Source of the DNA: Archangium sp.
Lineage (GTDB): Bacteria; Myxococcota; Myxococcia; Myxococcales; Myxococcaceae
Reading direction: 5' to 3'
NCBI GenBank assembly: GCA_030695565.1
Contig: JAUYRZ010000057.1
Coordinates: 1 to 36,874 of the forward strand
Length of the DNA stretch: 36,874 bases
A program made the position numbers and the translations under genes. This document shows, piece by piece, positions 3-36,874 of this stretch (position 1 is its first letter; each line of letters starts with the position of its first letter). Below the pieces are notes generated by a model. It made no database searches. It had not been told where the DNA came from and saw only the letters and a program-made list of their open reading frames with translations.

Positions 3-476
3 GGCGTGCTCCAGCCGGTGACGACTCCTGACGTGAAGCTGCATCGTGCGGGTTGGGTGCTGCTGGGGTTGCTCGCGGTGCAGTTGACCTGGGGCGCGTT
101 CATGGCGGGGCTCAAGGCGGTGCTGATGGCGCCCACCTGGCCGGACATCAATGGGCAGTGGTTGCCCTCGGCGGTGTGGAGCGAGCTGCCCTGGCAACAC
201 CCGCTGTCGGTGCACTTCATTCACCGGACCCTGGGGTACGGGCTGCTGATCGCGTTCCTGGTGTTCTGGTGGGTGAGCAGGCGCGCGTTGAGCTGGCAGC
301 GGCATGCGGTGCTCGGGCTTGCACTCGTGCAGGTCGTGCTCGGTGTGGTGACCGTCATCTACTCGACGCAGCCCGGGGCCCTGTTGTGGCTGGGGCTCGC
401 GCATCAGCTGACCGGCACCGCCTTGTTGGCTTCGTTGGTGGCCGCGACACAGAGGACGGTCCGTAGGACCGGATGA
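3..476 (+). CDS. ctaA: Heme A synthase (COX15/CtaA family), C-terminal half, cut by the window edge
   Basis: Membrane enzyme that converts heme O to heme A for cytochrome c oxidase. The frame is open to the left edge, so the N-terminal half is missing; about 157 residues remain of a family usually 300-390 long. The visible half holds the family signatures: W-G-A-F-M-A-G-L followed by T-W-P-D-I-N-G in the loop after a membrane helix, then H-F-I-H-R-T-L-G-Y-G with a heme-ligand histidine, and near the end L-A-H-Q-L-T-G with the second ligand histidine. Several hydrophobic helices alternate with these motifs. The gene is convergent with the next one, with a palindromic repeat between them. The heme O synthase and oxidase genes often found beside ctaA are not visible. 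Identification is firm; the start is unknown. Confidence 0.88.
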   Translation, partial: GVLQPVTTPDVKLHRAGWVLLGLLAVQLTWGAFMAGLKAVLMAPTWPDINGQWLPSAVWSELPWQHPLSVHFIHRTLGYGLLIAFLVFWWVSRRALSWQRHAVLGLALVQVVLGVVTVIYSTQPGALLWLGLAHQLTGTALLASLVAATQRTVRRTG

Positions 477-13356: not shown

Positions 13357-13469
13357 TGGCCGGGCGGGCACCCTCAGTCACTTGAGACCTTGCACCATGA
13401 CCGTCTGTTGTGAGGGGATGTAGCCGCCCTTGGGTCGTGGCTCGGACGGCAGGGGGGCAATCGATTTCA

Positions 13470-21924: not shown

Positions 21925-23670
21925 TTGCACCTGGGTCGGCAGGTAGGGGTTACTCCGCGCGACGTGACTGCCGAACTCGCCGACGGAGAAGAGACCCAGG
22001 TCAAGGGCTCGGGCTCCTCCATCTACACGCTGAAGAACAGCGGGGGCGTGTACTCCTGCACCTGCCCTGCGTGGCGAAACCAGAGCCTCGGCCTCATCCG
22101 CACCTGCAAACACCTGCGCGCCTTCCGCGGTGACGACGCGGAGATCGCGCGCCTCGGCTCATCTGCCAACCTCACCGGCCGCCCTCCGAAACCGCCGAAG
22201 CCCCCGAAGGCGCCCGGCGACAACACCCCCGACGATGATGACGACGAAGGGCCGCCCGTTCTCCTCGCGCACAAGTGGGAGAACGACGTCGACCTCACCG
22301 GCTGGTGGCTCTCCGAGAAGCTCGACGGCGTGCGCGCGTATTGGGACGGCGAACGGTTCATCTCGCGCCTGGGCAACGAGTTCTTCGCCCCGAAGTGGTT
22401 CACCGCGGCGCTGCCGAAGTCACCGCTCGATGGCGAACTCTTCGGCGGCCGCAAACAGTTCCAGCGCACCGTGGGCATCGTGAAGCGTCAAGACGCGTCG
22501 GATCTCTGGAAGGAGCTCCAGTACGTGGTCTTCGACGCGCCTTCCCACGGCGGTGTCTTCGAAGAACGCGTGGCTTTCATCGAAGCGACGCTCACCACGC
22601 TCGACGTGAAGTGGCTGGTCGCGCACAAACACGAGCTCTGCAACGGCACCGAACACCTGCGCGCCGAGCTCGCGCGCGTCGAAGGGCTCGGCGGCGAAGG
22701 CCTGATGGTCCGGCAGCCGAGGTCTCGCTACGAGGCGGGGCGCTCCAACACGCTGCTGAAGGTGAAGAGCTTCCACGACACCGAAGCGCGCGTGCTCGGT
22801 CACGTCGCTGGCCTGGGCCGCCACAAGGGCCGGCTCGGTGCGCTGCTGGTCGAGCTGCCCGACGGCACGCAGTTCAACGTGGGCACCGGCTTCAGCGACG
22901 TCGAGCGCGAGAACCCTCCGAAGGTGGGCTCGATCATCACCTTCCGCTATCAAGAGCTGTCGAACTCCGGCACGCCGCGTTTCCCCAGCTACATCGGTGA
23001 ACGCATCGACGGCACGTTCCACAGCAACGCCACCATTCGCCGCGTCGAAGGCGTGACGCCGAAGAAGTCTGCCGCTTCCGCTCCACCCCCACCTGCAGTC
23101 GTGAAACGAGGAAACATGCCGACCCGCCGCTTCGAGATGACCGATGGTGACACGCGCTATTTCTGGGAAGTCGAGTCGAACGGCTCGAAGCAGAAGGTTC
23201 GTTTTGGGACCTTCGAAGAGAAGGAGAAGCTCTTCGAAGACGACGATGAAGCGCGTGAGAACACCGAGAAGAAGATCGCTGAGAAGCTGGGCAAGGGCTT
23301 CCAGGAAGTCGGCGGTGGTGCCGCAGCCGCGCCCGCGAAGAAGAAGAGCCCGTTCGATGACGAAGAAGATGACGCGCCGGCTCCCGCTGCCGTGAAGAAG
23401 GCGCCGGCCCCTTCTGCTCCGGCTGCGTCGAGCGGCGGTAAGTCGTCGAAGTCCGGTGAAGCAGGCGCGCGGTACTTCGAGTTCATCGAAGGCAGCTCCG
23501 CCAAGTTCTGGGAGATCCGCGTCGAGGGCACCACCTTCTACACGCGCTACGGGAAGATCGGCACCGACGGGCAGATGACCCAGAAGGACTTCGACTCCGA
23601 CGAGAAGACGCAGTCCGAGGCGAACAAGCTGATCGCCGAGAAGACCAAGAAGGGCTACGCGGAAAAGTAA
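21925..23670 (+). CDS. SWIM zinc finger - LigE-type ATP-dependent DNA ligase - WGR - WGR fusion
   Basis: Seals DNA nicks using ATP, as judged by an intact ligase core. In order: a SWIM zinc finger C-T-C-x13-C-K-H (Cys45, Cys47, Cys61, His63); a Pro/Lys and Asp linker (86-110); the nucleotidyltransferase domain with motif I E-K-L-D-G (adenylated Lys132), motif III L-D-G-E-L (168-172), motif IV G-G-E-G-L-M-V-R (256-263) and motif V L-L-K-V-K (277-281); an OB domain to about 365; WGR 1 (400-460, degenerate signature) and WGR 2 (516-580, R-Y-G-K-I-G). The core resembles the small LigE class, normally 230-280 residues with a signal peptide; no signal is seen here. The start is TTG 21925 or GTG 21964, neither with a strong ribosome site. 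The stop overlaps the next ATG by one base. WGR domains occur in PARPs and bind DNA. Confidence 0.88.
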   Translation: MHLGRQVGVTPRDVTAELADGEETQVKGSGSSIYTLKNSGGVYSCTCPAWRNQSLGLIRTCKHLRAFRGDDAEIARLGSSANLTGRPPKPPKPPKAPGDNTPDDDDDEGPPVLLAHKWENDVDLTGWWLSEKLDGVRAYWDGERFISRLGNEFFAPKWFTAALPKSPLDGELFGGRKQFQRTVGIVKRQDASDLWKELQYVVFDAPSHGGVFEERVAFIEATLTTLDVKWLVAHKHELCNGTEHLRAELARVEGLGGEGLMVRQPRSRYEAGRSNTLLKVKSFHDTEARVLGHVAGLGRHKGRLGALLVELPDGTQFNVGTGFSDVERENPPKVGSIITFRYQELSNSGTPRFPSYIGERIDGTFHSNATIRRVEGVTPKKSAASAPPPPAVVKRGNMPTRRFEMTDGDTRYFWEVESNGSKQKVRFGTFEEKEKLFEDDDEARENTEKKIAEKLGKGFQEVGGGAAAAPAKKKSPFDDEEDDAPAPAAVKKAPAPSAPAASSGGKSSKSGEAGARYFEFIEGSSAKFWEIRVEGTTFYTRYGKIGTDGQMTQKDFDSDEKTQSEANKLIAEKTKKGYAEK

Positions 23671-24767
23671 TGGCCACGGCGAAACGTCGTCTGAGCCCAG
23701 CTGACTTCGACGTCGTGCGCGGGGCGGCGCACGACGTGAAGGCCCTTCGTAAGTTCGTCGAACAAGAAGGCGCTGCCGCCACGGTCGTCGTCGAAGAAGC
23801 GCTCGACCGTGGGTCCAGCACGATGCACAAGACGGCGTGGCAGTGTCTGGCTCAACTCGATCCAACGCGCGCCGAGACGAAGGCGCTCGTGATGACGGCG
23901 GGCCTCACGAAGAAGGCGAAAGCGGCGCTGCTGCCGCTGTGGGTCGTCGCCACCACGGGGTGTCTCGATCGCCTCGTCGCGCTGGGCATTGAGGTCTACC
24001 CCGACAAGTTCCCCGAGACGTCGCTCTCGTTCTCGAGAGCGCAGGGCTGGGCCCTGGCGGTGCTGCTGCGGTCACCCGAGGTTGCAACACAAAAACAACT
24101 GCTCCAGGCGTGGTTCGGTCCTTACAACGACGCATCGACCGGGTTCGACCTTCTGCGCGGCGCGCTCGAGCACCCGGCTTTCCTGGTGCGCTCCGAGGCG
24201 CTGCAGCTGTTGATCGGGTCGCGAGACGTCGAAGCGTGCCGCCTCGATTCTCTGCCCGAGGACCTGGTGATCCGCGCGCGGTTCGTGCTGCCGGCCGCCG
24301 AAGCGTTCGATCGATTGAGGCCCTGGTTCGAGAGCAACCCTTCTCAGCGCGGTGCGGTGATCAGAGCGCTCGGCATCCAGCAGGAGTGCGACCCACGTTG
24401 GGTGGAGCTGTTCTCGTCACTCGATGACTCCGCGGTTCGAATGGCCGGGTTGATGGCGACGCGCCGGCCAGAGGCACTCGCGCTGCTCACTCCGTTGATC
24501 CAGCGCATGGAACCAGGTCCTGAACTGCTCACGGCGCTGATGGCGCTGCGCGGCTTTCGTTCGGCAGAGGCGGCGGCGCTGCTGGTGCCGTGGCTCTCGC
24601 GCAGCGAACTCGATGGCAACGCTGCGCTGCTCTCGACCTCGCTTCGGGAGTGCGGCTCGCCTGCAGATGCCGCCGCGCTCGAGGCCGCGGCAGAGCGCAA
24701 CCCGCAGGGCGCCTTGTTCTATCGCGAGGCCATCGCCCACATCGAGGCGCGCCACCCGAAAGGCTGA
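23670..24767 (+). CDS. HEAT-like repeat protein
   Basis: A 365-residue soluble protein of helical hairpins. Its ATG overlaps the ligase stop codon by one base (TAATG), so the two are co-translated. The first third is a helical region I cannot name. From about residue 150 it reads as HEAT-like repeats: L-L-R-G-A-L-E-H-P-A-F-L-V-R-S-E-A-L-Q, E-L-F-S-S-L-D-D-S-A-V-R-M-A-G-L, A-L-M-A-L-R-G-F-R-S-A-E-A-A-A-L-L. No enzymatic motif, zinc site or membrane segment is visible. Such repeats form curved protein-binding scaffolds. Its place between the ligase fusion and two much larger helical-repeat proteins suggests it is an adaptor of the same complex. The family is unnamed as far as I can tell. Confidence 0.78.
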   Translation: MATAKRRLSPADFDVVRGAAHDVKALRKFVEQEGAAATVVVEEALDRGSSTMHKTAWQCLAQLDPTRAETKALVMTAGLTKKAKAALLPLWVVATTGCLDRLVALGIEVYPDKFPETSLSFSRAQGWALAVLLRSPEVATQKQLLQAWFGPYNDASTGFDLLRGALEHPAFLVRSEALQLLIGSRDVEACRLDSLPEDLVIRARFVLPAAEAFDRLRPWFESNPSQRGAVIRALGIQQECDPRWVELFSSLDDSAVRMAGLMATRRPEALALLTPLIQRMEPGPELLTALMALRGFRSAEAAALLVPWLSRSELDGNAALLSTSLRECGSPADAAALEAAAERNPQGALFYREAIAHIEARHPKG

Positions 24768-24816
24768 CAACCCTGGGGCTGTCGTGAGAACGGCACATCG
24801 CTATCGTTGGAACGCG

Positions 24817-24957
24817 ATGAAGAAGCGACTGACGAAAATCGGTAACAGCCTTGGGATCGTTCTCGATCGCCCTCTGCTCGAGAAGCTCGGCGTCGATGCG
24901 GAGACCGACCTCGAAGTCTCTACCGACGGTTCCGTCATTCTGATCTCGCCGGCATGA
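24817..24957 (+). CDS. Small AbrB/MazE-type (SpoVT-AbrB fold) DNA-binding protein
   Basis: A 46-residue protein with the swapped-hairpin AbrB pattern: K-R-L-T-K-I-G-N-S-L-G-I-V-L-D-R, then L-L-E-K-L-G-V-D-A-E-T-D-L-E-V, then D-G-S-V-I-L-I-S-P. Proteins of this fold are dimeric DNA-binding antitoxins or regulators that usually repress their own promoter. Typical members are 70-90 residues with a C-terminal tail that binds a toxin; here the frame stops right after the DNA-binding fold. Its stop overlaps the ATG of a 42-codon frame (ATGA at 24954-24957). It lies 49 bases after the HEAT-like gene in the same direction. It may regulate the cluster or be a toxin-antitoxin remnant. Confidence 0.75.
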   Translation: MKKRLTKIGNSLGIVLDRPLLEKLGVDAETDLEVSTDGSVILISPA

Positions 24958-25082
24958 ACGGTCTCTGGGTCGAGACGATCAACGACGCGTTGGTCGAACG
25001 CACCTTGAACGTCGTCGAGGGCCGCGCTGCGAAGTCCGACGTGGCGGTGTTCTTCAGTGAACACGCCGAGCCGTGGGACTGA
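24954..25082 (+). CDS. 42-codon reading frame overlapping the AbrB-type gene
   Basis: Begins at the ATG within ATGA at 24954 and encodes 42 residues starting M-N-G-L-W-V-E-T-I-N-D-A-L-V-E-R and ending F-S-E-H-A-E-P-W-D. The four-base overlap suggests coupled translation with the AbrB-type gene. No toxin family is recognised, and it is too short for Fic/Doc, MazF or PIN toxins. It might be the C-terminal tail of the antitoxin shifted out of frame, since AbrB-type antitoxins often end in a short helix after the DNA-binding fold. It could also be a real small partner or a chance frame. Confidence 0.4.
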   Translation: MNGLWVETINDALVERTLNVVEGRAAKSDVAVFFSEHAEPWD

Positions 25083-25197
25083 CTGGCGGGAGATCAGGGG
25101 TGACACATCGCGGATGATCGGGGTGCAGAAAATCTTCCGTCCTCAATCTTGTGGAGATCCGCCGACCGCCTGACCTAGCGTCCGCTCGCTTTTGAAC

Positions 25198-25202
25198 GGA
25201 GG
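25198..25202 (+). promoter_or_regulatory. Strong Shine-Dalgarno GGAGG before the 887-residue gene
   Basis: GGAGG lies five bases before the ATG at 25208. The gap before it (25083-25207) separates the AbrB-type unit from the large repeat genes and is the best place for an internal promoter, but I can point to no convincing -35/-10 pair there. Confidence 0.6.
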
Positions 25203-25207
25203 GGTTC

Positions 25208-27871
25208 ATGGCTGATCGTCCCGACATCACGCTCGACGACTTGAAGACGCTGGCCCGAGGGCAGGCGCCTGATCTCGCCCAGGCCATCATTCATTTCGCA
25301 GCCCAGCCGCAGCCTGCTCCCGAGCACGTGCCTGAAGGCGCGCTCACGCCGGAGGCCTTCGAGCAGCAGCTCAAAGACGCGCAGAAGGAATACCGCGAGT
25401 CGGTCAAGCGCATGAAGGTCGCGCTGCTCTGGCGCCGCTACCTCACGCAGCCCGACCCGCCGCCTTCCGGCAAGTACCTGCTCGCCGACTTCCTGCTCGA
25501 GCTGTACCTCGAGGGGGGCGAGCCCAACCGCGCCACGCTGCTCGAGGTCGCTCGCAGCGCACCGCTGGCCCGCGGGCTGTGGGGTGGTCTCAAGCGCATC
25601 TACAAGCTCGCCGAAGAACGTCAGGACGCGCTCCTGTTCGGCGCGATCCTCGGCCGGCTCGAGTCGAACACCGGCGGTGGCGGCGCCGTCACCCGCGGCA
25701 CCATCGTCTATCTGCAGCGCCGCGGCTGGCGTTACCTGCGCAACCTCGCGCGCGCCGTGCCCGAGCTGTACCCCGTGTTCGCCACCGCCACGCTCAACCA
25801 GCTCTCCCAGGACGCCAGCACCTGGCAAGGCGTCGCCTGCGGGCGGATCATCAACGCGGGCGAGGAGTACTTCGAGAACGCGTGGAAGCTCTCACCTGAT
25901 CCGTTGATGGTGCTGCTGGAGACCGCGCAGCAGAACGACGTGGCGAAGTTCGCCATCGCCAAGCTCAAGAAGCACTTCCCGCAGCAGCTGCGCCAGACGA
26001 ACGTGGCCTGGCTCTCGCGGCTCGCGCAGCGGCCGATCGCTGCGGTGCACGAGCTGCTGGTGGACATCCTGGTCAACACGCCGGAGCTCCACCCCGCAAA
26101 GCTGGAGGGCCTCGGCCTCAAGCCGGCGGTGCTCTCGCTGCTGCTCTCTCCGTCGCCGGCCGCCCGCAAGTACGCCATCGAATACGCGCGCGCGCACGCC
26201 ACCGAACTGCCGCCTGCCGTGGTGGTCGAGTACGCGCTCACCGGCGAATCAGACACCCGCGCCTGGGCCATGTCGGTGCTCGAGACGGTCAGCGCCAAGA
26301 CGCTCGGCTTGCCGCTGCTCTCGAAGTTGCTCGCGGGCCAGAGCACCTCGGCCTGGGCGATCACCCGCCTCGAGTCTCAGTTCGATCGCGCTGAGCTCAC
26401 CGACGCGTTCTTCGTCGAGCTCGTCTACGGCACCGGCACGCAGCGTGACTGGGCGCGCAAGTACCTGGCGGAGCGCGTGAAGCAGAGCGATCAGCTCGCG
26501 AACTTCATCAAGGCGCTCTTCGCAGACCCGCGCCGGCAAGACGTGGCGCTCGCTGCGCAGCTGGTGCGTTTCACCCGGCAGTTGATGCCGCTCGTCGCGC
26601 CCGAACATCTCGGCGCTCCGTGGTTGATGGCGCTGTTGGTCGATCGGCCTTTCCGCGAAGTCGCCGACGAAGCATTGCGCCGCGCGAAGTCGCTGCCCGG
26701 TCTCGACATCGAGGCGGTGAAGGGGCTGGTGTTCGATCGTTCGGTGCGAGAGCTCGCGCTGCACCTGCTCTCCACGCACGCCAGCTTCAAGATCATCGGG
26801 CTGCCCTGGCTGCTCGCGCTCGCCCGCCGCACGGATCCCACGCTGTCTGGGTTCGCCACCCGCACGTTGCTCGGTCAGGTCGACCCGCGCGACTTCGGTG
26901 ACGGCGACGTCGATCGCGGCGTGAAGCGGCTGCTCGAGCTCGCCACCGGCGCGAAGGAGCCCGACCCGGTTCGCCTGTTCGCGCAGACCTATCTGCGTTG
27001 CCACCACCCCACGGTCGGTCCGCAGCAGCCCGAAGCGGTGGCCAACGCCATCACGCCCAGGCTGACCCTCGCCCAGTACCAGCCCGAGCCGTACTGGAAG
27101 GCGCTGTTCGATTCGCGCGCCGACGTGCGCCGTTTCGCGAGCGTGATCACCAGGGCCGAGCTGCGCCGCTGGGGCTACCACCTGCGCGTGTACGAGCTGG
27201 CCGACAGCGAACACCGCGAAGTGCGCACCCTCTGCACCAACGCGCTGGAGAACGCGGGTTCACCCACCGCCGAGCTCGCCTGCACCTTGACGGTCGAAGA
27301 GATCGATCCCGCGCAGGTGTTCCGGCTCACCGAGAGCCGCATTCGCCAGAGCCGCGAAGTCGCGATGGAGCTGATCGCGCGTCACTACGCCCGCCTCGGT
27401 GGCCCCGAGCGCCTCGCGTGGTTGATGGAGAGCGCCGATCGCAGCGTGCGCACCATGGCCGTGCGCATGTTGTGGGAACGCCATCGTCCCGCATCGCTGC
27501 CTGAAGGCTGGAAACCCAAAGGTCCGCAGAAGTTGCCCGAGCACGCCGGCCGTTTTGCCGACGTTCGAGTGCTCCAGGAGTTCCTCCGCACCTTGTTGTT
27601 CGGTCTTCCTCCCGGCCGCAGCCCCGATGCACGTGAAGGTGAGCTGCCTCGCCGCGCGTCGGGAGCCCAGGCCGCCAAACGCCGCGCCATCGAAGCGGCC
27701 CGCGCGCTCGCCGTGGAAGACGAAGGGTTCGCGCGCGCGGTCTCTCCTCTCTTCCTCGAGTTCTCGGGGAGCATCGCGCGGGGCGAGTGGCAGGCGTGCC
27801 TCGCCGCGCTCACCAGTCTCAAGGTCGCTCATCCGCACCTCGACGTCGGTCTTCACCTGAAGGGGGGCTGA
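25208..27871 (+). CDS. Large helical (HEAT-like) repeat protein
   Basis: An 887-residue soluble protein built almost wholly of helical hairpins. Near residues 90-200 there is a distinctive block: L-A-D-F-L-L-E-L-Y-L-E-G-G-E, G-L-W-G-G-L-K-R-I-Y-K-L-A and Y-L-Q-R-R-G-W-R-Y-L-R-N-L-A. HEAT-like units follow, such as P-A-A-R-K-Y-A-I-E-Y-A-R-A-H-A and R-E-V-A-M-E-L-I-A-R-H-Y-A-R. The last 100 residues have a basic linker (A-K-R-R-A-I-E-A-A-R-A-L-A) and a helical end. No enzymatic motif, zinc finger or WGR is seen. A good ribosome site precedes the ATG, and only four bases separate its stop from the giant WD40-HEAT-WGR gene, so the two are surely co-expressed. The Y-L-x-R-R-G-W-R-Y-L motif would be a useful search handle. 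Likely a scaffold of the WGR/SWIM system. Confidence 0.82.
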   Translation: MADRPDITLDDLKTLARGQAPDLAQAIIHFAAQPQPAPEHVPEGALTPEAFEQQLKDAQKEYRESVKRMKVALLWRRYLTQPDPPPSGKYLLADFLLELYLEGGEPNRATLLEVARSAPLARGLWGGLKRIYKLAEERQDALLFGAILGRLESNTGGGGAVTRGTIVYLQRRGWRYLRNLARAVPELYPVFATATLNQLSQDASTWQGVACGRIINAGEEYFENAWKLSPDPLMVLLETAQQNDVAKFAIAKLKKHFPQQLRQTNVAWLSRLAQRPIAAVHELLVDILVNTPELHPAKLEGLGLKPAVLSLLLSPSPAARKYAIEYARAHATELPPAVVVEYALTGESDTRAWAMSVLETVSAKTLGLPLLSKLLAGQSTSAWAITRLESQFDRAELTDAFFVELVYGTGTQRDWARKYLAERVKQSDQLANFIKALFADPRRQDVALAAQLVRFTRQLMPLVAPEHLGAPWLMALLVDRPFREVADEALRRAKSLPGLDIEAVKGLVFDRSVRELALHLLSTHASFKIIGLPWLLALARRTDPTLSGFATRTLLGQVDPRDFGDGDVDRGVKRLLELATGAKEPDPVRLFAQTYLRCHHPTVGPQQPEAVANAITPRLTLAQYQPEPYWKALFDSRADVRRFASVITRAELRRWGYHLRVYELADSEHREVRTLCTNALENAGSPTAELACTLTVEEIDPAQVFRLTESRIRQSREVAMELIARHYARLGGPERLAWLMESADRSVRTMAVRMLWERHRPASLPEGWKPKGPQKLPEHAGRFADVRVLQEFLRTLLFGLPPGRSPDAREGELPRRASGAQAAKRRAIEAARALAVEDEGFARAVSPLFLEFSGSIARGEWQACLAALTSLKVAHPHLDVGLHLKGG

Positions 27872-27875
27872 GCCC

Positions 27876-30800
27876 ATGGCCACCTACGCAATCGGACACC
27901 TCGAGCAGGTCCGCGCGCTCGCTGCGAGCGGCCGCCTCCTCGCCATCGGCGGTACCCGTTCGGAAGCCACCTCGGCGGTCACGCTCTTCGATGCAGGCAC
28001 GCGGAAGGTCACGCGCACGCTCGCCCTTCCCACGCACACGGCCGCGCTCGCCTTCTTCGGTAAGCAGCTGGTGGTCGGTGGCGTCGACGGTCAGCTCCAC
28101 CGTTTCGACTTCGCTTCGGGTGAATCGGCCGGTGCTGCGCTGGCGCATCAAGGCGGCGTCACGGCGCTCAGCGCGACGGTCACGCTGCTGGCCAGCACGG
28201 GCGTCGACGGCAAGGTGATCGTCTGGGCCGACGGCGCGAAGAAGTACGAGTTCATGGCGCCGGGCCCTCAGCGCGCGGTGGCACTCGATCCCGCGAACGG
28301 CCGCGTGGCCGTCGCTGGTGATGACGGCATCGTGCGCCTCTTCACCTTCGGCCAGAAGCAGCCGCGCGAGATGGAAGGGCACCGGGGTGCGGTGACGGCG
28401 CTCGCGTTCACGCCGCGTGATGGCCGCCTCGCGTCGACCGGTGACGATGGCACCGTTCGGTTCTGGTACCTCGAAGGCGCAGTCGAGTGTGAAGTGCGGG
28501 GTGAAGGCGACACGGGTCACGCCGGTGGTGCGACCGCGTTCGCGTTCCTGCCTTCTCCGAAAGACGGCGCGAAGGACACGAGCGATCGCCTCGTCTCCAC
28601 GGGCCTCGACGCGAAGATTCGCACCGTGCGGCTCGACGACAAGAAGCGCAGCAAGACCTTCGATGCCGACGGTCCACAGCGCGCGCTCGCATTGGTGGAG
28701 AGCGATCCGCGCAAGGCGTCGATCGAGATCGTCACCGGCGGTGATGGCCGCAAGCTGACGTTCCTCGAGGTGGGCGTCGAAGGGGCGCTCCCCGACTCGG
28801 CGCATCAGGGGCTCGATGGTTTCACCACCTGGTCTGCGCAGCTGAAGAGCGCGCAGCGGGCGGCGAAAGAAGTGCTGGCGAAGGACCTGCCGAAGATCCC
28901 CGAAGCCGAGGTGTTGCCGCTGCTCGAGGCGCTCGCGGGCGATCGCGAAAACCCCGTTCGCCTCACGCTGGCGAAGACGCTCAAGGACAAGCCGCGCAAG
29001 GACACCCGGGCGCTCCTCCGCAGCCTGGTGAAGGACAAGGATGCCGGCGTGGCCCAGGCCGCGCTCGAGTCGCTCGCCGTCACCGAAGACCAGCCGTTCT
29101 TCGCGTATCGCGAGGGGCTGCGTGCCGCGGTTCCTTCGGTGCGCATCTCGGCGCTGAAGGCTCTCGCACCGCTCTACCCGGCGGTGCCGTTGGTGCCCGC
29201 GTTGGTCGCGGGTCTGCTGAAAGATGCCGACCCCACCGTGCGCATGTCGGCGCTCGACGCGCTGCAGGCGGTGTTTCCGCAAGGTGTCGAAGCGCTGGTC
29301 ACGGGCTTCGAGAAGGGCACCGCCGACGTCCGCGCCGAAGTGCTGGTGCGCGCGTTGTTCCAGGGCCAGTTGCCCTCCTTGCAGTCGATCTCCGGCCGCG
29401 CGCTCGATGATGAGAACGTGGTCGTGCGCCAGGTCGCCTTCGTGGTGCGCGTGCTGGAGCGCCCCTCACTCGGCCTCCTGCTCGAGAAGATGCTCGAGCT
29501 GCCCGAAGTTCTGCGCCGCGCGAACGGCGGCAAGGACCCGAACCCCGAACAGCTCACCGCGCTGCGCGGAAAGCTGCAGCTCACCGGCAAGCCAGCCGAG
29601 CTGACCCAGGACGATCTGACGCCGCTGCTGGTGGCCATGTCGGCGCGCGCGACGGACGTCGCCAGCCGGGGCGCCGTGGGCCTGCTCGTCGCGTCGAACG
29701 ACGTGCGTGCGGTCAGCGCTTTGTTGCAGCTCTCCCGTGAAGAGCCCGCGGCGCACCGCGTGTGGGTCGCGCAGACCCTTTCTTCTCTGGCCGATCCGCG
29801 CGCCCGGCAGCGCGTCGCTTCGATGACCGACGACAAGGACGCGGCGGTTCGCGCGGCCGCTGCCGATGGTCTGACCAGGCGGAAGGACGAAGCCTCTCCG
29901 CTGGAGTTCGCGGGCATTCTATTGCGCTCGGCCTACGAGGACATGCGCAAGCGTGGCCTCACGCGCCTGGTCGCGGTGCCTCAGAAGGATCGAACCGAAG
30001 AGGCCGAGACGCTGCTCGGTCACGCGCTCGAAGACGAAGCGGGTGGGGTGCGCAGCGAAGCGTTCAAGACGCTCTGGGCGTGGCACGAGAAGGACGCCAC
30101 CGCCGCGATTGATCGTGCGCTGCTGTGCCGGTTCGCGGATCTCCGCCTCGCGGCCGTGCGTCAGCTCGCGCTGATCGCCAAGGTCCCCAACGACGATGAT
30201 CAGCCGGCGCCGAAGAACACTCCGGCGTGGATTTTGGATCGGCTGGAAAAGGCCGTCGTCGATCGCGATGCGTCCGTCGGCGAAGCAGCGGTCACCTCGC
30301 TCGCGCGCCTGCTCGGCAAAGACGCCGCGAAGCCCTGGCAGAAGGGTCTCGAGTCAGAGGCCATCGCCACTCGCATTCTCGCTGCGCGACGTGCCGCGGG
30401 GTTGGCCGGCAAGGCCGAAGCCGAGTCGTTGCGTTCGCCGTTGGTGAAGGCGCTGACCGATCTCTCCGTGCCGGTGAAGCTCGCCGCCATCGAGAGCGTG
30501 GACGCGTTGGTGAAGAACGACGCCGGGCCGCTCACCGCGGGGCTGATGGGCGATTCGCTCGAGCTGCGTGTGCGTTCTGCCGAGCTGCTCGCGCTGCGCG
30601 GCGAAGAGATCATCATCGAGCCAATGCGCGGGTTCGTGCTCGACGCCGAGCTCAAGCTCCGTCACCCGGCTGCGTATCTCGAGCCGCTGCGCGCCCGTGC
30701 CGTCGGTGCGCTCGCGACCCTGGGCAGCCCTCGCACCGCGGGGCTCTTCGCCGAGCCGTTGCTCAAGGATGAGAACCCGGCCGTGCGTGAACAGGCCGCG

Positions 30801-33800
30801 CGTGGCTTGTGCAACTCGGGTCACGAAGCGTTCCTGCTCGACGCGCTCAGCCACGCTGACGTCGCGGTGCGCAGCTGGGCCGCTGAAGGCCTCGCTCGGC
30901 TCGGCGATGATCGAGGCCTCGCCGTGCTCACGGGCACGCTGAAGGATCAGCACCTGCCGATCCGTGAAGGCGCGCTGCGTGCGCTCGTCGCGCTCGGCCC
31001 CGCGGGTGACAACGCGCTCTTCCTCGGGCTCGACGACGCCGACGACTACCTGTCGGACACGTTCTTCGCGACGCTGCTCGCGCGCGATCTGCGGGCGGCG
31101 CGTGAAGGCAATGAGCCTGAGCTGCTCACGGCTGCACTCTCTGCCCAGCGCCCCGACGTGCGCTACGCCGCGGCCCGTGCGCTCGAGCTGCGCGCTGACG
31201 TGAGCTCGTACACGGAGCTCCTGCTCGCCGCCGTCAGCCCTCCGAAACTGGAGAAGGCGGGCGACATGAAGGACTGGCCTGAAGAGGGTGAGCGCGAGCG
31301 CGCGGCCATGCGGCTGCTGCAGTTGCTCGGCGCCGACACACCTCAGGCCCGGTACGCAGCGGGCCAGGCGCTGCTCCTGCGACGAAAGCCGCTCGAGTTC
31401 TTCGCCGAGGTGAAGCGGGTCGTCACGATTCGCCCCGCTTCCGAGACCACCGTTCCCGATACCAACCAGCGTGGCCGTGCGGGCACCGATGCGGTCGCTC
31501 GCAAGGACTGGCTGCGGAAGTTGTTCGCGGGCGCGTCTTCGAAGGTCCCTGCGTCTGACTCGAAGGAACTCGAAGTGCGCCGGTGGATTTCGTTCGGCGC
31601 GTACGTCGGGCTGCTCCGGCTCTCCAATCCTGATGAGACGGTGCGCCGGGTGCGGCGTGACGTGGTCGACCGGATGATCGAGATGGCGGGCGCCGGGAGC
31701 CCCAAGCCGGCTTCCGTGATCCCCGCGCTCGTGCGCGCGCTCGACGATGAAGACGCGCTGGTGCGCAAGAAGACGATGGCGGGTCTCTCGAAGTTGCTCG
31801 AGGCGACTCCCGACGTGGCGCTGCGGCACGCCTTGTCTTCCGCTTCGGCTGACGTCGGCCTGCTCGCGCTCGCGCAGTTGAACGAGCGTGGTGAAGCGGC
31901 CCGGCCGTGGTTCATCGACGCTTTGTCTTCCAACGTGGTCGAGGTTCGTCAGCAGGCGTTCGTCTTGCTGGAGCGCAATGTCGGCCCCGGCAGTCTCGAC
32001 GCGTTGATGGCGGCGCTGGCGAGCCCGCACTCTGACCTGCGCCTGGGCGTGTTGCAGAAGCTCGCCGCCAGCCAGGACGCGCGCGTGTTGCCTGCGTTGC
32101 GCAAGGCGCTGGAGAGCGATCGCGACGACGTTCGCCTGCTCGCCGCGCAGCTGCTCGCCGAGCGCAAGGACGACTCGGCGGTGCCTGCGCTCGCTGCGTT
32201 CCTGGTGCCCGAAGGTCCGTCACTCGGCGCGGCCCGTACTGCGCTGGGCACCTGCGCGACCGACGCCTCAGCCCTCGCGCTGGGCACGCACCTGCAGGAA
32301 CTCGCGGCGATGCCCGCGGCTGCTGATCCCGCTCCGCTGAGCACGCTCAAGCGTGACGCCATCGCGGCGCTCGCTTCGACCCGTCGGGTGGTTGGCCTGG
32401 GCGCACTGCTGGAGCGCTTCGAAGATCCCGCGGCCGACGTGCGGCTCGCTGCGTTCACCGGCGCGCTGTTGCTCGGCAATCACCGAAGGCCTCCGGCGAA
32501 GGGTGCTCCGACTCGTGAATACCTGAAGGACGAGAAGCGGTACCCACGCAACCCGGCCGCCGTGCTGCAGACGCTCCGCGCGGGCGTGAAGGCGAAGGAC
32601 CCGATTCTGCGCAGCTCGGCTGCTCGCGAGCTCGACGTCGGCGTGGAGCCGGAGAACGACACGCTGCTCATCTCGCTGTTCGGCGATCGCGACGTCGCGA
32701 CCCGCGTGCAGGCCGTGGGCAGCTACGCCCAGCGCGTGGAGAAGCACGCCGCGCCCGTCGCCGCGCTCGAGCTGGTGATTGCGCAGGGCGCTCGTGAGCT
32801 GATGCTCAACGCCGCCGAAGGGCTCGCCGCGAAGCAACACGTCGCGTCGCTGCGGCCGCTGTTGCTCTTCACCCGCGCAGGCGAAGTCGAAGAACAGGTG
32901 CGCGCGGTGTTGGCGCTCGGCAACAGCGGGCAAGTCCGCGCGCTGGAAGAGATGGAGCTGCTCGCGGCCGGTGGCACCGAAGAGGCGCCCACCGATGTGC
33001 TCGTGCGTGCGGCGGCCATCGAAGCACTCGGCCGGCTCTACAAGGTGCTCACCGACGTGGAGCAGAAGAAGCGGGTGCTCGAGCTGGTCGAGGCCAGCGC
33101 GCTCGAAGGCAACTTCCGCATGGCGGGCGTGCGCGGCCTGCGTTGGATTGGTGACGATCGTTCGCTGGGCCGGCTGCAGCAGCTCGTCGCGGCCGAAGAC
33201 GATCGCGACGTCGAGGTGCGCAAGGAGGCCATTCGTTCGCTGGCCGTGCTCGCCGATCCTTCGAGCGAGAAGGTGCTCACCCGCGCGCTCACGCAGTGGC
33301 AGTTGGCCGACACTGCGCTGCAGGCGCTCGAGGCCTGCTTCCCGAATGATCCACTCCGCGTGGCGATGAACGCTGCGTCGAGTGAGTTGCCGAACATCTC
33401 GGGTCCTGCGCTGGCGTATTTGCTCGCCGAGGCCGAGCCTGCTCCGCTGTTGGAGCGCCTGGCCAACCCGCGGCTGCGCCCCGACCTGCGCGCGAAGGTG
33501 AAGTACGGCCTGGGCCGCAGGCCGTCGCTGCCGACCGAGGCGTTGGTGAAGTACGCCGGCTCTGAGTTCGCCAGCGTGCGTGACGACATGGCGTGGCTGA
33601 TGGCGCGCCATGCGCTGGCGGGTACGGCGCTGCCCGCGGCGGAGCAGCAGCAGCGCGCGAAGAGCCTGGTGGCTTCGGCGACCAGCACTGCGACGCCTTG
33701 GGCGAAGAGCGTGGGGACCGACAAGGTCGCTGAAGAGAGCGCGTTCTTGCGCTTGCTCTGGGCGGCCACGCTGCACGCTTCGCGCGAAGTGGAAGAGCTC

Positions 33801-34886
33801 GCGGCGAAGTCGTTGTCGGGTGGCTCGCCGGCTCCGGCGAGCGTTCGTGCGGAGTCGGCGCGGGTGCTGCAGAAGGCAGGCGCTGGCGCGGTGCCGGTGC
33901 TCATGCGCGGGGCCAGTGACATCGACGGCGGCGTGCGACGTGCTTCCGTGTCGGCGCTCGTCAAGACGAACGCGGCTCAGGCCACGGCGCTCATCGAGAG
34001 CAGCAAGCCGCTCGACTCGCTCTCCTTCGACGCCGTGAAGGGCGACGCGATGATGCTCGCCACCGAAGCCGCCCGTGCGGTGATGCTGCCCAAGTTGATC
34101 GGTGCCGGCGATCCCGCGGTGCTGATGACCCAGGCCGAGAAGGGCGCCTCTGAAGCGGTTCAGCGCGCGGCGCTGATGGCGCTCGGTCGCATGGGTGGTG
34201 AGTCGGTCGCTGAGTTCCTCGCGAAGCTCGCGTTCAGCGCGGGTGGTGGCGAAGACGGTGACGACGAAGAAGAAGAGGACCAGGACGAAGAAGAGCCCGA
34301 GGAGGATGACGACGACGGGGGAGACGAAGACGAGGACTCCGGTCCCAGCCCCGACGTGTCGATGCCCGGCTCGCGCCGCTTCGAGTTCGAAGAAGACGAC
34401 AGCTCGAAGTTCTGGGAGGTCGTCGTGCAGGACACCATGTGTGTCGTGCGCTTCGGGAAGATCGGCGCCGCGGGGCAGAAGAAGCCCAAGAAGCTCGCGA
34501 CTCCCGAGGCTGCTCAGAAGGAGATGGAGAAGCTCATCAAGGAGAAGACCGGCAAGGGCTACGCAGAGGTGAAGCTGCGCGGCGTGGCCGCTCCGAAGGC
34601 GCTGGCGGCTCCGAAACCGGCGAAGGCGGCCAAGCCTGAGAAGGTGGCGAAGGTCGAGTGGGGCACTCCGGCGCTTCGTGAAGCGGCGTTCAGGGCGCTT
34701 CGGCGCGCTCAGCGCACGAATGCGCGGCGGCAGAACATGCCCAGGTGGTTCACCTCGGAGCAGTTGGTGCAGTTGGCCGCGAACCCGGAGTTGGCCGAGT
34801 CGATGATGCCGGTGGTCGCTGTGGCTCCGGCTCGCGATGATGAGGATGATGGCGATGAGGATTACGACGAGGACGACGATGAGTAA
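27876..34886 (+). CDS. Giant WD40 - HEAT repeat - WGR protein
   Basis: A 2336-residue soluble protein. Residues 1 to about 300 are WD40-type blades, such as L-L-A-S-T-G-V-D-G-K-V-I-V-W-A and the better G-H-R-G-A-V-T-A-L-A-F (from 169) followed by L-A-S-T-G-D-D-G-T-V-R-F-W. From about 300 to 2110 runs a very long array of HEAT repeats, seen as the recurring hydrophobic D-x-x-V-R-x-x-A-A-x-A-L pattern (A-A-V-R-A-A-A-A-D-G-L, P-A-V-R-E-Q-A-A-R-G-L, A-D-V-R-L-A-A-F-T-G-A-L). An extremely acidic linker (about 2125-2160) leads to a WGR domain (2166-2232) with W2180 and R-F-G-K-I-G, closely related to the second WGR of the ligase. A Lys/Ala linker, a helical basic motif near 2266 (A-L-R-R-A-Q-R-T-N-A-R-R) and an acidic tail finish the protein. 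It is probably the central scaffold. Confidence 0.87.
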   Translation: MATYAIGHLEQVRALAASGRLLAIGGTRSEATSAVTLFDAGTRKVTRTLALPTHTAALAFFGKQLVVGGVDGQLHRFDFASGESAGAALAHQGGVTALSATVTLLASTGVDGKVIVWADGAKKYEFMAPGPQRAVALDPANGRVAVAGDDGIVRLFTFGQKQPREMEGHRGAVTALAFTPRDGRLASTGDDGTVRFWYLEGAVECEVRGEGDTGHAGGATAFAFLPSPKDGAKDTSDRLVSTGLDAKIRTVRLDDKKRSKTFDADGPQRALALVESDPRKASIEIVTGGDGRKLTFLEVGVEGALPDSAHQGLDGFTTWSAQLKSAQRAAKEVLAKDLPKIPEAEVLPLLEALAGDRENPVRLTLAKTLKDKPRKDTRALLRSLVKDKDAGVAQAALESLAVTEDQPFFAYREGLRAAVPSVRISALKALAPLYPAVPLVPALVAGLLKDADPTVRMSALDALQAVFPQGVEALVTGFEKGTADVRAEVLVRALFQGQLPSLQSISGRALDDENVVVRQVAFVVRVLERPSLGLLLEKMLELPEVLRRANGGKDPNPEQLTALRGKLQLTGKPAELTQDDLTPLLVAMSARATDVASRGAVGLLVASNDVRAVSALLQLSREEPAAHRVWVAQTLSSLADPRARQRVASMTDDKDAAVRAAAADGLTRRKDEASPLEFAGILLRSAYEDMRKRGLTRLVAVPQKDRTEEAETLLGHALEDEAGGVRSEAFKTLWAWHEKDATAAIDRALLCRFADLRLAAVRQLALIAKVPNDDDQPAPKNTPAWILDRLEKAVVDRDASVGEAAVTSLARLLGKDAAKPWQKGLESEAIATRILAARRAAGLAGKAEAESLRSPLVKALTDLSVPVKLAAIESVDALVKNDAGPLTAGLMGDSLELRVRSAELLALRGEEIIIEPMRGFVLDAELKLRHPAAYLEPLRARAVGALATLGSPRTAGLFAEPLLKDENPAVREQAARGLCNSGHEAFLLDALSHADVAVRSWAAEGLARLGDDRGLAVLTGTLKDQHLPIREGALRALVALGPAGDNALFLGLDDADDYLSDTFFATLLARDLRAAREGNEPELLTAALSAQRPDVRYAAARALELRADVSSYTELLLAAVSPPKLEKAGDMKDWPEEGERERAAMRLLQLLGADTPQARYAAGQALLLRRKPLEFFAEVKRVVTIRPASETTVPDTNQRGRAGTDAVARKDWLRKLFAGASSKVPASDSKELEVRRWISFGAYVGLLRLSNPDETVRRVRRDVVDRMIEMAGAGSPKPASVIPALVRALDDEDALVRKKTMAGLSKLLEATPDVALRHALSSASADVGLLALAQLNERGEAARPWFIDALSSNVVEVRQQAFVLLERNVGPGSLDALMAALASPHSDLRLGVLQKLAASQDARVLPALRKALESDRDDVRLLAAQLLAERKDDSAVPALAAFLVPEGPSLGAARTALGTCATDASALALGTHLQELAAMPAAADPAPLSTLKRDAIAALASTRRVVGLGALLERFEDPAADVRLAAFTGALLLGNHRRPPAKGAPTREYLKDEKRYPRNPAAVLQTLRAGVKAKDPILRSSAARELDVGVEPENDTLLISLFGDRDVATRVQAVGSYAQRVEKHAAPVAALELVIAQGARELMLNAAEGLAAKQHVASLRPLLLFTRAGEVEEQVRAVLALGNSGQVRALEEMELLAAGGTEEAPTDVLVRAAAIEALGRLYKVLTDVEQKKRVLELVEASALEGNFRMAGVRGLRWIGDDRSLGRLQQLVAAEDDRDVEVRKEAIRSLAVLADPSSEKVLTRALTQWQLADTALQALEACFPNDPLRVAMNAASSELPNISGPALAYLLAEAEPAPLLERLANPRLRPDLRAKVKYGLGRRPSLPTEALVKYAGSEFASVRDDMAWLMARHALAGTALPAAEQQQRAKSLVASATSTATPWAKSVGTDKVAEESAFLRLLWAATLHASREVEELAAKSLSGGSPAPASVRAESARVLQKAGAGAVPVLMRGASDIDGGVRRASVSALVKTNAAQATALIESSKPLDSLSFDAVKGDAMMLATEAARAVMLPKLIGAGDPAVLMTQAEKGASEAVQRAALMALGRMGGESVAEFLAKLAFSAGGGEDGDDEEEEDQDEEEPEEDDDDGGDEDEDSGPSPDVSMPGSRRFEFEEDDSSKFWEVVVQDTMCVVRFGKIGAAGQKKPKKLATPEAAQKEMEKLIKEKTGKGYAEVKLRGVAAPKALAAPKPAKAAKPEKVAKVEWGTPALREAAFRALRRAQRTNARRQNMPRWFTSEQLVQLAANPELAESMMPVVAVAPARDDEDDGDEDYDEDDDE

Positions 34887-34899
34887 GCCCTCTCCCCGA

Positions 34900-34923
34900 C
34901 CCTCTCCCCCGCTGGGCAGAGGG
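34900..34923. repeat. Palindromic repeat, copy 5, just before the SWIM gene
   Basis: Left arm CCCTCTCCC (34900-34908) and imperfect right arm GGGCAGAGGG (34914-34923, one extra C). A second left arm precedes it (GCCCTCTCCCC at 34888-34898), giving the tandem lead also seen in related repeats. It fills most of the 45-base gap between the giant gene and the SWIM gene. Confidence 0.72.
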
Positions 34924-34925
34924 AG
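34920..34925 (+). promoter_or_regulatory. Shine-Dalgarno AGGGAG formed by the repeat's right arm
   Basis: AGGGAG ends six bases before the ATG at 34932 and overlaps the right arm of repeat copy 5. If the hairpin forms in the message it would hide this site, so pairing could tune translation of the SWIM gene. The site is seen; the tuning is inference. Confidence 0.5.
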
Positions 34926-34931
34926 ACAGGA

Positions 34932-36740
34932 ATGTCGATGAGCTCCGTTCGTGACGTGAAGGTTCAGTACGCCGGCCCCAGCGCGCTCGTCGCTCAAGAG
35001 GGTCGTGCCCAGGTGAACCTGGTGCTCGATGCCTCGCGTGGCCCGGTCGGCGTGCGCGGTACGGTGAAGTCACCTGCGCTCTTCCGCGATGCGTTGATGG
35101 CCGCGTTCGACGTGCTCGGCAGCGACCTTCGCTACAAGCGCAAGGATCTCGCCGTCTACCTCGCCTACCTCACCAAGCAGGGCAAGAAGGCGAACAAGGA
35201 GATCTGGGAAGCCCAGAAGGCCTTCCTCGAACAACAGCTCGGCAACGAAGAGAAGCCACAGCAGGTGCTCGAGCCCGTGCTCACCGTCAGCCCCGATGAG
35301 ATCTCCCTCGAGGTCTTCTCGCGCGACGAGTCGAGCTACGCGCGCCTCTCCCTGCCTTCTTCGATGTTCGAGAAGCGCGAAGCCGCGCACGGCACCACCA
35401 CGCTGTCCGTCGACGAAGCCTTCATCGCCCGCTTCGAGCGCCTGCGCAGCTGGCAGCCGGTCTCTCTCGAGGCCACCAGCCAGCCCGGCAGCACGCCCGT
35501 CTCGACCCGCCAGGTGCCGCTCGCCTGGTTGCGCAACTTCGTGCAGGTGCAGTCGGCCTCCACGTTGCCGGCCGCCGTCGCTGAGCTTTCGCCCATCGAT
35601 CTCTACAACCTGCTCTTCGTGTTGCGGACCCGCTCCGCGAAGAAGCCGCCGCGCGGGCTGCGTTTCGAGCTCGTGCCCGGTGCGCAGCCGCGCCTGGTGA
35701 TCGAGCCGTTCGACATCGTGCTGGAGTGCCACGGCGCGCCGTACGCGGGGAAGACGCCGCGCGTGGTGCGCATCTTCGGCCGTCAGCGCCTGCTCTCCCT
35801 CGCCCGCGCCCTGCAGCACGTCAAGACGGCCAGGGTGCACTTGATGGGCGCTGGACTGCCGGTGTTCTGGGCGCTCGACTTCGGGCCCGATCGCGGCAGC
35901 CTCACCGTCGGCTTCACCGGGTGGACCGACTCCGGCTGGTCGAGCGCTTCGGCCTTCGACGCGCTCATGCCGCCGGCCAGTGCCGAGGCGCTCGCCGAGA
36001 AGGCGTACGCGCACCTGCTCAAGCACGGCCCCACCACCTTCGACGGCATGGTGCGCGAGCTGGGCGCTCCCGCCAAAGAAGTGCGCGCGGCGCTGCAGCT
36101 CGAGTGTCTCAAAGGGCGCATGCTCTTCGACCTGGTCAAAGCCGAGTACCGCCCCCGCCAGCTGCTCGACGCGCCCATCGACGTGGCGCAGATCCGCTTC
36201 GGAGGCGAACGCGAGAAGCTGGCGCATCGCCTGCTCGAAGGCGCTGGCGCCGTGCGGCTCACCAAGGTGCACGACCTCGGCAGTGAAGGCACCGAGCTCT
36301 CCGGCGAGGTGGAGGATCTCGAAGCCCGACGCACCTTCACGCCCAGCTTCACCCTCGACCCCGAAGGCCGCGTGCGCGGGGCGGGCTGCACCTGCCTGCA
36401 CTTCAAACGTGCCGGCCTGCGCGAAGGCCCCTGCGAACACCTGCTCGCGCTGCGCATCTTCCACCAGCGCCGGTTGCTGCACGACGAAGAGCTGCGGCAG
36501 ACCGCCGAAGGCCGCGCGCTCATTCGTGCCGAGACGCGCACCTTCGTGCGGCGCGAGACGGGCAAGGAGCTCGTCTACCGCGTCTCGCTCGACGACAAGC
36601 TGGTGCGGGTGATGTGGGGCCCGCGCAGTGAAGAGCCCCGGCAGCAACGCACCTGGTTCGACTCCGATGCCCAGGCGCGCGAGGCGTACTTCGCTCGACT
36701 CGATTCACTCACCCAAGACGGCTTCATCGACGCAGGTTGA
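34932..36740 (+). CDS. SWIM zinc-finger protein with probable winged helix
   Basis: A 602-residue soluble protein. Residues 1 to about 340 form a mixed alpha/beta region without a name I can give (landmarks: L-R-Y-K-R-K-D-L-A-V-Y-L-A-Y-L and R-V-V-R-I-F-G-R-Q-R-L). About 353-410 looks like a winged helix: A-Y-A-H-L-L-K-H-G-P-T-T-F-D-G-M-V-R-E-L followed by V-R-A-A-L-Q-L-E-C-L-K-G-R. A SWIM zinc finger lies at 486-503: Cys486-T-Cys488-x12-Cys501-E-His503, the canonical C-x-C-x(n)-C-x-H form. ATG 34932 is followed by an in-frame ATG two codons later; the ribosome site is well placed for the first. From memory, E. coli YehQ is also a SWIM protein, encoded near a WGR protein and a MoxR ATPase. 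It is the last gene before the window edge, so further partners may follow. Confidence 0.85.
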   Translation: MSMSSVRDVKVQYAGPSALVAQEGRAQVNLVLDASRGPVGVRGTVKSPALFRDALMAAFDVLGSDLRYKRKDLAVYLAYLTKQGKKANKEIWEAQKAFLEQQLGNEEKPQQVLEPVLTVSPDEISLEVFSRDESSYARLSLPSSMFEKREAAHGTTTLSVDEAFIARFERLRSWQPVSLEATSQPGSTPVSTRQVPLAWLRNFVQVQSASTLPAAVAELSPIDLYNLLFVLRTRSAKKPPRGLRFELVPGAQPRLVIEPFDIVLECHGAPYAGKTPRVVRIFGRQRLLSLARALQHVKTARVHLMGAGLPVFWALDFGPDRGSLTVGFTGWTDSGWSSASAFDALMPPASAEALAEKAYAHLLKHGPTTFDGMVRELGAPAKEVRAALQLECLKGRMLFDLVKAEYRPRQLLDAPIDVAQIRFGGEREKLAHRLLEGAGAVRLTKVHDLGSEGTELSGEVEDLEARRTFTPSFTLDPEGRVRGAGCTCLHFKRAGLREGPCEHLLALRIFHQRRLLHDEELRQTAEGRALIRAETRTFVRRETGKELVYRVSLDDKLVRVMWGPRSEEPRQQRTWFDSDAQAREAYFARLDSLTQDGFIDAG

Positions 36741-36824
36741 AAAGGCACTGAAACGAACCCAAACGAACTTCCCGCCAGAGAGCGAGGTGTCGAGGAACAT
36801 CAGCCTTCGCGCTTCAGTGCGCAG

Positions 36825-36843
36825 GAGCGGCGTTGCGCCGCTC
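36825..36843 (+). terminator. Terminator-like hairpin after the SWIM gene
   Basis: Perfect 8-base arms GAGCGGCG and CGCCGCTC around a TTG loop, 84 bases after the stop of the SWIM gene. There is no T-run after it, so an intrinsic terminator is only a possibility. If real, it would mark the end of the cluster's transcript. Confidence 0.3.
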
Positions 36844-36874
36844 TGGAGATTGGTCCAACACACTCCGCTAGGTA

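Follow-up and report, generated by a model that had tools for sequence, protein, structure and literature searches.

A probable type XIII retron with a linked LigE-like DNA ligase in Archangium sp. and related myxobacteria

The stretch of DNA analysed here (the window, 36,874 nucleotides) is contig C57 (JAUYRZ010000057.1) of the 134 contigs of an Archangium sp. genome, G000, which was searched by protein family and pattern. Towards its end lie six open genes on one strand (A, B, a small AbrB-like frame, D, E and F; Table 1), which an earlier note had taken for an undescribed DNA-associated system and which, judged from sequence, almost certainly include the accessory genes of a type XIII retron, as D, E and F match PADLOC families of that type and are followed in relatives by the reverse transcriptase (RT) family RT_XIII. 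The frames and their tight junctions were as the note had described them, with a one-base overlap at 23670 and a four-base gap ahead of 27876. Gene A had been read from TTG 21925; the gene stands, but its probable start is the later GTG at which homology among the orthologues begins. WGR domains were confirmed in two of the proteins and in three copies, two in A and one in E. SWIM fingers are present in two proteins as well, that of A lying below Pfam detection, yet conserved in 6/6 orthologues, and that of F being weak in Pfam (E 0.005 for this F) and found in 17/17 orthologues. Among the three proteins described as HEAT-like, E gave a strong signal, whereas B and D were weak in Pfam and below its cut-off (21 and 14.5 bits), yet D reached 708 bits against PADLOC HEAT-ARM_XIII.

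The retron assignment depends on what lies beyond F. The locus runs past the window, since a retron RNA gene (msr-msd) that starts at 36764 is cut off by the end of the contig, 134 bases beyond F, and because of this break the RT was missed by the earlier reader. Directly after F, a protein of the RT_XIII family is encoded in the sister genome G003 (E 1e-145), in G009 (E 1e-146) and in several other genomes. The window genome's own RT (E 7e-145 for RT_XIII) lies at the end of contig C21 and shares 92% identity with the RT of G003. C21 opens with the tail of one msr-msd unit, followed by a complete second unit and then the RT. In G003, F, two complete units and the RT stand on one contig that is collinear with window positions 15371-36874 and with C21; the link between C57 and C21 is drawn from collinearity with that contig alone, and the retron is most likely complete in this genome and split by the assembly. 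The overall order is ligase - D - E - F - msr-msd (in most loci as two tandem units) - RT. When gene order was compared, the ligase, D, E and F were found together and in the same order in six genomes, so that the single conserved unit proposed earlier holds for these four genes and does not extend to B or to the AbrB frame.

Retron type XIII is reportedly defined in the classification of Mestre et al. 2020, and our use of the name follows the best PADLOC family names, the PADLOC RT families bearing retron type numbers. PADLOC includes retron systems and msr-msd models, for which it cites that classification (PMC9252829). We consider it likely that the locus is an Mx162-like type XIII retron of myxobacteria, in a form that is peculiar to one clade and has acquired a DNA ligase. 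Contigs break inside the msr-msd region repeatedly (C24/C38 in G032, C314/C339 in G030, C66/C36 in G116 and C57/C21 in G000); with their long msd hairpins and repeats, the units interrupt assemblies exactly where the accessory genes give way to the RT, and such loci therefore pass as "new systems" devoid of an RT.

The ligase encoded by gene A matches NF006592/PRK09125 (E 1e-98), DNA_ligase_OB_2 and two copies of WGR, as well as the LigE structures 4d05, 8u6x and 6gdr, and it has an OB domain and the catalytic motifs I, III, IV and V, the ligase motifs being intact in 6/6 orthologues. No signal peptide was evident by inspection, there being only about 30 residues and no hydrophobic stretch between the shared start and the SWIM finger, and we therefore call the enzyme LigE-like rather than LigE proper; with the SWIM finger ahead of the ligase and two WGR domains behind it, it is presumably cytoplasmic. 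Ligases of this SWIM-LigE kind are present in 50 of the 96 genomes of the family and in 0 of 49 other genomes searched from the same order. In a tree, the WGR-bearing ligases form one clade (support 100/100), while the stand-alone ligases sampled lack WGR except for those of G018 and G022. Each of the six genomes with a D of the same subclade (at least 79% identity) has the ligase immediately upstream of D and on the same strand, and among 13 genomes of two genera, ligase and D are both present in six and both absent in seven (Fisher p 6e-4). The four non-sister loci share with the window only the ligase, the stretch from D to msr and, by way of C21, the RT; outside the sister genome homology ends at the ligase start and past the RT, apart from the changeable segment separating A from D, which argues that the ligase travels with the cassette. 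The constant ligase beside D in this subclade, and its linkage, are new as far as we could check, and we hold it probable that the ligase is a functional part of the retron here. To our knowledge, the retron classification lists no locus of this sort with a LigE-type ligase, and on this point the earlier note, which knew of no description of it, was right.

The two large proteins D and E match HEAT-ARM_XIII (Table 1). Wherever the end of E can be read, its C-terminal WGR domain occurs only in the ligase-bearing subclade and is absent in other genera, a restriction that is likewise new as far as checked, and this domain is 52% identical to the second WGR of A. Prediction of D without an alignment gave a model that was not usable (pLDDT 46).

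The msr-msd units share an exact 19-base motif that was found in Myxococcus (including M. xanthus AM003), Corallococcus, Pyxidicoccus, Archangium, Hyalangium and related metagenome-assembled genomes. With up to two mismatches allowed, the motif is present in 66 of the 96 family genomes, although two matches with two mismatches (in G080 and on contig C123 of G000) may be chance; it is absent from 2.9 million viral contigs, and no Rfam family matches the msr-msd. Every complete unit has an msd hairpin of 101 or 102 nucleotides, and the 29-bp stem of this hairpin varies at almost every position (32 distinct 101-mers) with no G-U pair and with rare mismatches at three columns. Selection on an RNA fold would tolerate G-U pairs, and their absence therefore points to a DNA duplex on which selection acts or within which copying occurs; strict Watson-Crick stems across the family are new as far as checked. 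Tandem units were found in four of the five subclade loci that could be resolved (G003, G116, G119 and, from its two contig ends, G000), the fifth of these, G009, having a single unit and G030 being left out of the count, as against 2/60 outside the subclade (G084 and G086). The two units of G003 have nearly identical frames and different stems, and such tandem units with different stems in this subclade are, as far as checked, also new. A GATC stands at the same place in four of the five RT-distal stems (unit 1 of G003, G116, G119 and G084) and in 0 of the 35 other distinct stems, and it is shared while the flanks differ; it could be a methylation-sensing site, which is a lead only, the sequences being related. 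Six-base palindromes numbered 39 in the stems of loci L101-L135 as against 21 in shuffles (0/2000 shuffles), an excess that may be due to inheritance, as related sequences are being counted. The idea that the stems are phage-derived and spacer-like was rejected, two stems having no exact match in the viral contigs.

For gene F, an AlphaFold2 model built on an alignment of 17 sequences (pLDDT 73.8, pTM 0.52) predicted a clamp like PCNA in the front half of the protein. The predicted clamp matched PCNA in Foldseek (E 4e-6, target TM 0.62), and a VIA-align comparison with Sulfolobus PCNA gave a Z of 16.2 and a root-mean-square deviation of 3.2 with 206 residues aligned, models without a clear match usually having a best Z of 7 to 8. 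The best 50 rows listed from the PDB were all PCNA, and PCNA and beta clamps stood at the top of a viral structure library. On this model F probably has a clamp fold like that of PCNA, a prediction that is new as far as checked. The C-terminus of F is termed WGR-like from its pattern alone, because a profile comparison gave a probability of only 2.5% and the domain was rejected as a WGR on that basis.

The stretch between A and D varies from locus to locus. What had been described as an AbrB-type switch is a decayed remnant, the AbrB frame and the 42-residue frame behind it being both ends of an AbrB-Doc toxin-antitoxin pair whose middle is missing and which is intact in the sister genome G003; AbrB was thus ruled out as a regulator of the cluster. 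Gene B, formerly counted as one of three HEAT parts of a single complex, was likewise ruled out as a core subunit and is probably an insertion, because no homologue exists in the five other loci. The same slot holds an unrelated 288-residue gene with the same one-base junction in G030, a collagen-like gene in G119 and the intact AbrB-Doc pair in G003, and it is empty in G009 and G116. Inter-gene gaps of the retron are insertion spots elsewhere as well (L067, L069, L070 and window 23670-25200), with a LysM gene between F and RT in G012, a JmjC/cupin gene between D and E in G027 and a Uma2 nuclease ahead of E in G019, besides the Doc pair remnant and B between A and D in the window.

Table 1. 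Features of the retron locus and associated elements; positions are those of the window unless another contig or genome is named, and residues are those of F.
Feature	Position	Strand	Remark
Gene A	21964..23670	+	SWIM, LigE-type ATP-dependent DNA ligase, two WGR; 568 residues from GTG 21964
Gene A, SWIM finger	22057-22113	+	CxC...CxH motif
Gene A, ligase domain	about 22249-23004	+	
Gene A, WGR domains	about 23113-23310 and 23470-23667	+	
Gene B	23670..24767	+	365 residues, weak HEAT signal; this genome only, of six loci
AbrB/MazE-type antitoxin remnant	24817-24957	+	46-residue stub
Doc/Fic toxin C-terminus remnant	24951-25082	+	42-residue frame after AbrB stub
Intact AbrB-Doc pair	sister G003, L061:12077-12690	minus	
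Gene D	25208..27871	+	887-residue HEAT-ARM protein; PADLOC HEAT-ARM_XIII, PDLC02921, 708 bits
Gene E	27876..34886	+	2336 residues, WD40 propeller and HEAT; HEAT-ARM_XIII, PDLC02919, 1024 bits
Gene E, C-terminal WGR	34383-34571	+	
Gene F	34932..36740	+	SWIM protein; PADLOC SWIM_XIII, PDLC02972, 487 bits
Gene F, predicted PCNA-like clamp	residues 40-333, 35049-35930	+	
Gene F, winged helix	residues about 347-393	+	
Gene F, SWIM finger	residues 486-503, 36387-36440	+	
Gene F, WGR-like C-terminus	residues 533-595	+	
msr-msd unit 1, start	36764..36874 (first 111 bases)	+	cut by contig end
Putative branch site CAGC	36801-36804	+	
Own RT	contig C21, L085, 12985-14436	minus	

Other retrons are described as tripartite toxin-antitoxin-like defence systems in which the RT and its multicopy single-stranded DNA (msDNA) restrain an effector (PMC12548924, PMC11555353). 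By analogy, D, E and F may form a restrained complex with RT and msDNA here, and a function in antiphage defence, taken from the retron class, seems reasonably probable. The RT would copy each msd into a small DNA with a core of 29-bp perfect DNA duplex, and RT and msDNA would sit in a large complex with the HEAT proteins D and E, together with F, as scaffold, the predicted clamp of F holding the duplex DNA. As in retrons that are better known, intact msDNA would keep the complex inactive; phage infection would alter the msDNA by cutting, modifying or titrating it, the complex would be released or activated, and the infected cell would stop growing. The ligase might be tethered through WGR domains, of the kind that E has also gained, and might close nicks, most simply those in the duplex of the msDNA or else in other DNA that the complex holds, so that the sensor is kept intact or reset, but that it acts on either DNA is a tentative hypothesis, which we hold to be possible rather than probable.

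Several observations weigh against this scheme. Neither D nor E nor F has a recognisable toxic domain of a known kind, and our literature search turned up no data on the function of a type XIII retron. As for the ligase, SWIM-LigE stands alone, not beside D, in 44 of the 50 genomes that have it, G018 and G022 have WGR-bearing ligases though they have no D, no PIP-box motif was found in A, D or E, and the p-values are optimistic because genomes within one subclade are not independent. These stand-alone genes, the single ancestry of the six linked cases and the coming and going of B, the Doc pair and the 288-residue gene between A and D would fit an ordinary type XIII retron in which the ligase is a mere neighbour that arrived once, was kept by linkage and has a repair role of its own. 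Such a neighbour would hardly be expected, however, to remain constant and on the same side in 6/6 loci, in two genera and at different chromosomal sites while the filler changes, nor would it explain why only in this clade the ligase and E bear WGR domains that are related to each other, and we judge this explanation rather unlikely. The clamp of F is open to a similar doubt, as it could be a modelling artefact and F a DNA-binding SWIM protein of another fold: the alignment is shallow, the pTM is 0.52, each of the four remaining models had a lower score, and sequence searches gave no match to PCNA or DnaN families, even when the F profile was compared with the PDB, so that the claim is one at fold level resting on a single model. 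A Z of 16 over about 206-218 residues, where 7 to 8 is usual, together with a PDB list made up of clamps only and a viral list topped by named clamps, argues that an artefact is unlikely.

The earlier note had also likened the locus to the yeh region of E. coli, which combines WGR, SWIM, MoxR and vWA proteins, and an undescribed repair or conflict complex of that kind, in which the RT has no part, would have the domain types SWIM, WGR and HEAT in common with our genes. The analogy found no support: F is directly followed by msr-msd and RT_XIII both in the subclade and in other genera, and no MoxR AAA+ or vWA gene was seen in the cluster or among the flanking genes scanned, which were not all of the flanking genes; we give this alternative hardly any credence. 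A bolder version of the retron reading makes the locus a clamp-and-ligase machine, in which F, as a PCNA-like ring, would hold the RT-made hairpin DNAs with their different stems and the WGR-tethered ligase would join them to phage or host ends or to each other. We think this quite improbable, but if it were true, the msDNA would be a building block besides its role as a sensor, and two units per RT would yield two DNAs for separate tasks, one often with a GATC methylation site. For the reading that we prefer, a type XIII retron with the ligase as a part, the predicted clamp, the dedicated ligase in one lineage and the DNA-duplex stems make the role of the accessory proteins testable; no tests of what Mx162-type accessory proteins do were found in our literature search.

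Related elements were seen elsewhere. A further type XIII retron, different in subtype, lies on contig C90 of the window genome (L072:7090-13023, minus strand), with SWIM_XIII, a 622-residue HEAT-ARM_XIII protein and an RT_XIII of 689 residues with a long N-terminal extension. Loci L066, L068 and L074 have a type XIII form with a WGR and beta-propeller protein, a HEAT protein of about 1000 residues, a SWIM protein and an RT, propeller and WGR thus forming a separate gene there and both lying inside E in the window. WGR proteins without a PADLOC match also occur away from the retron in this genome (C131:141388-143081 and C47:20199-20393), two of them adjacent. Upstream in the window and outside the retron block, positions 11248-13371 (minus strand) encode a protein of family PF10136 ("site-specific recombinase", E 2e-174).

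Compared with known systems, the locus has domain names in common with the E. coli yeh region and differs from it in having an RT and msr-msd and no MoxR or vWA gene among those seen. The predicted fold of F 40-333 is like PCNA and the beta-clamp, but F is without detectable sequence similarity to them and has extra winged helix, SWIM and WGR-like domains. Like LigE, a periplasmic ATP-dependent DNA ligase of Proteobacteria, A has nucleotidyltransferase and OB domains with all motifs, and unlike it, A has no evident signal peptide, a SWIM finger before these domains and two WGR domains after them. Mx162-type msDNA was one of the earliest retron DNAs to be described, the M. xanthus retron Mxa1 (Mx162) is the probable founder of type XIII, and in M. 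xanthus AM003 (L115) an msr-msd unit occurs with F and E as in the window locus. The units here stand beside the RT gene and have a long msd hairpin, a CAGC branch site with its branch G, an msr of about 71 nucleotides and an msd of about 162 nucleotides by our count, as in Mx162 (branch site and msr/msd lengths in PMC6868368), and by branch site and lengths alone they are most likely Mx162-type retrons. D, E, F and the RT match the type XIII families of PADLOC (RT_XIII, SWIM_XIII, HEAT-ARM_XIII, WGR_XIII). Unlike published type XIII retrons, for which our literature search found no mention of a clamp, F is predicted to contain one of the PCNA kind, and unlike the known members of the type, this subclade adds a SWIM-LigE-WGR ligase, a WGR domain on E and, often, two msr-msd units per RT.

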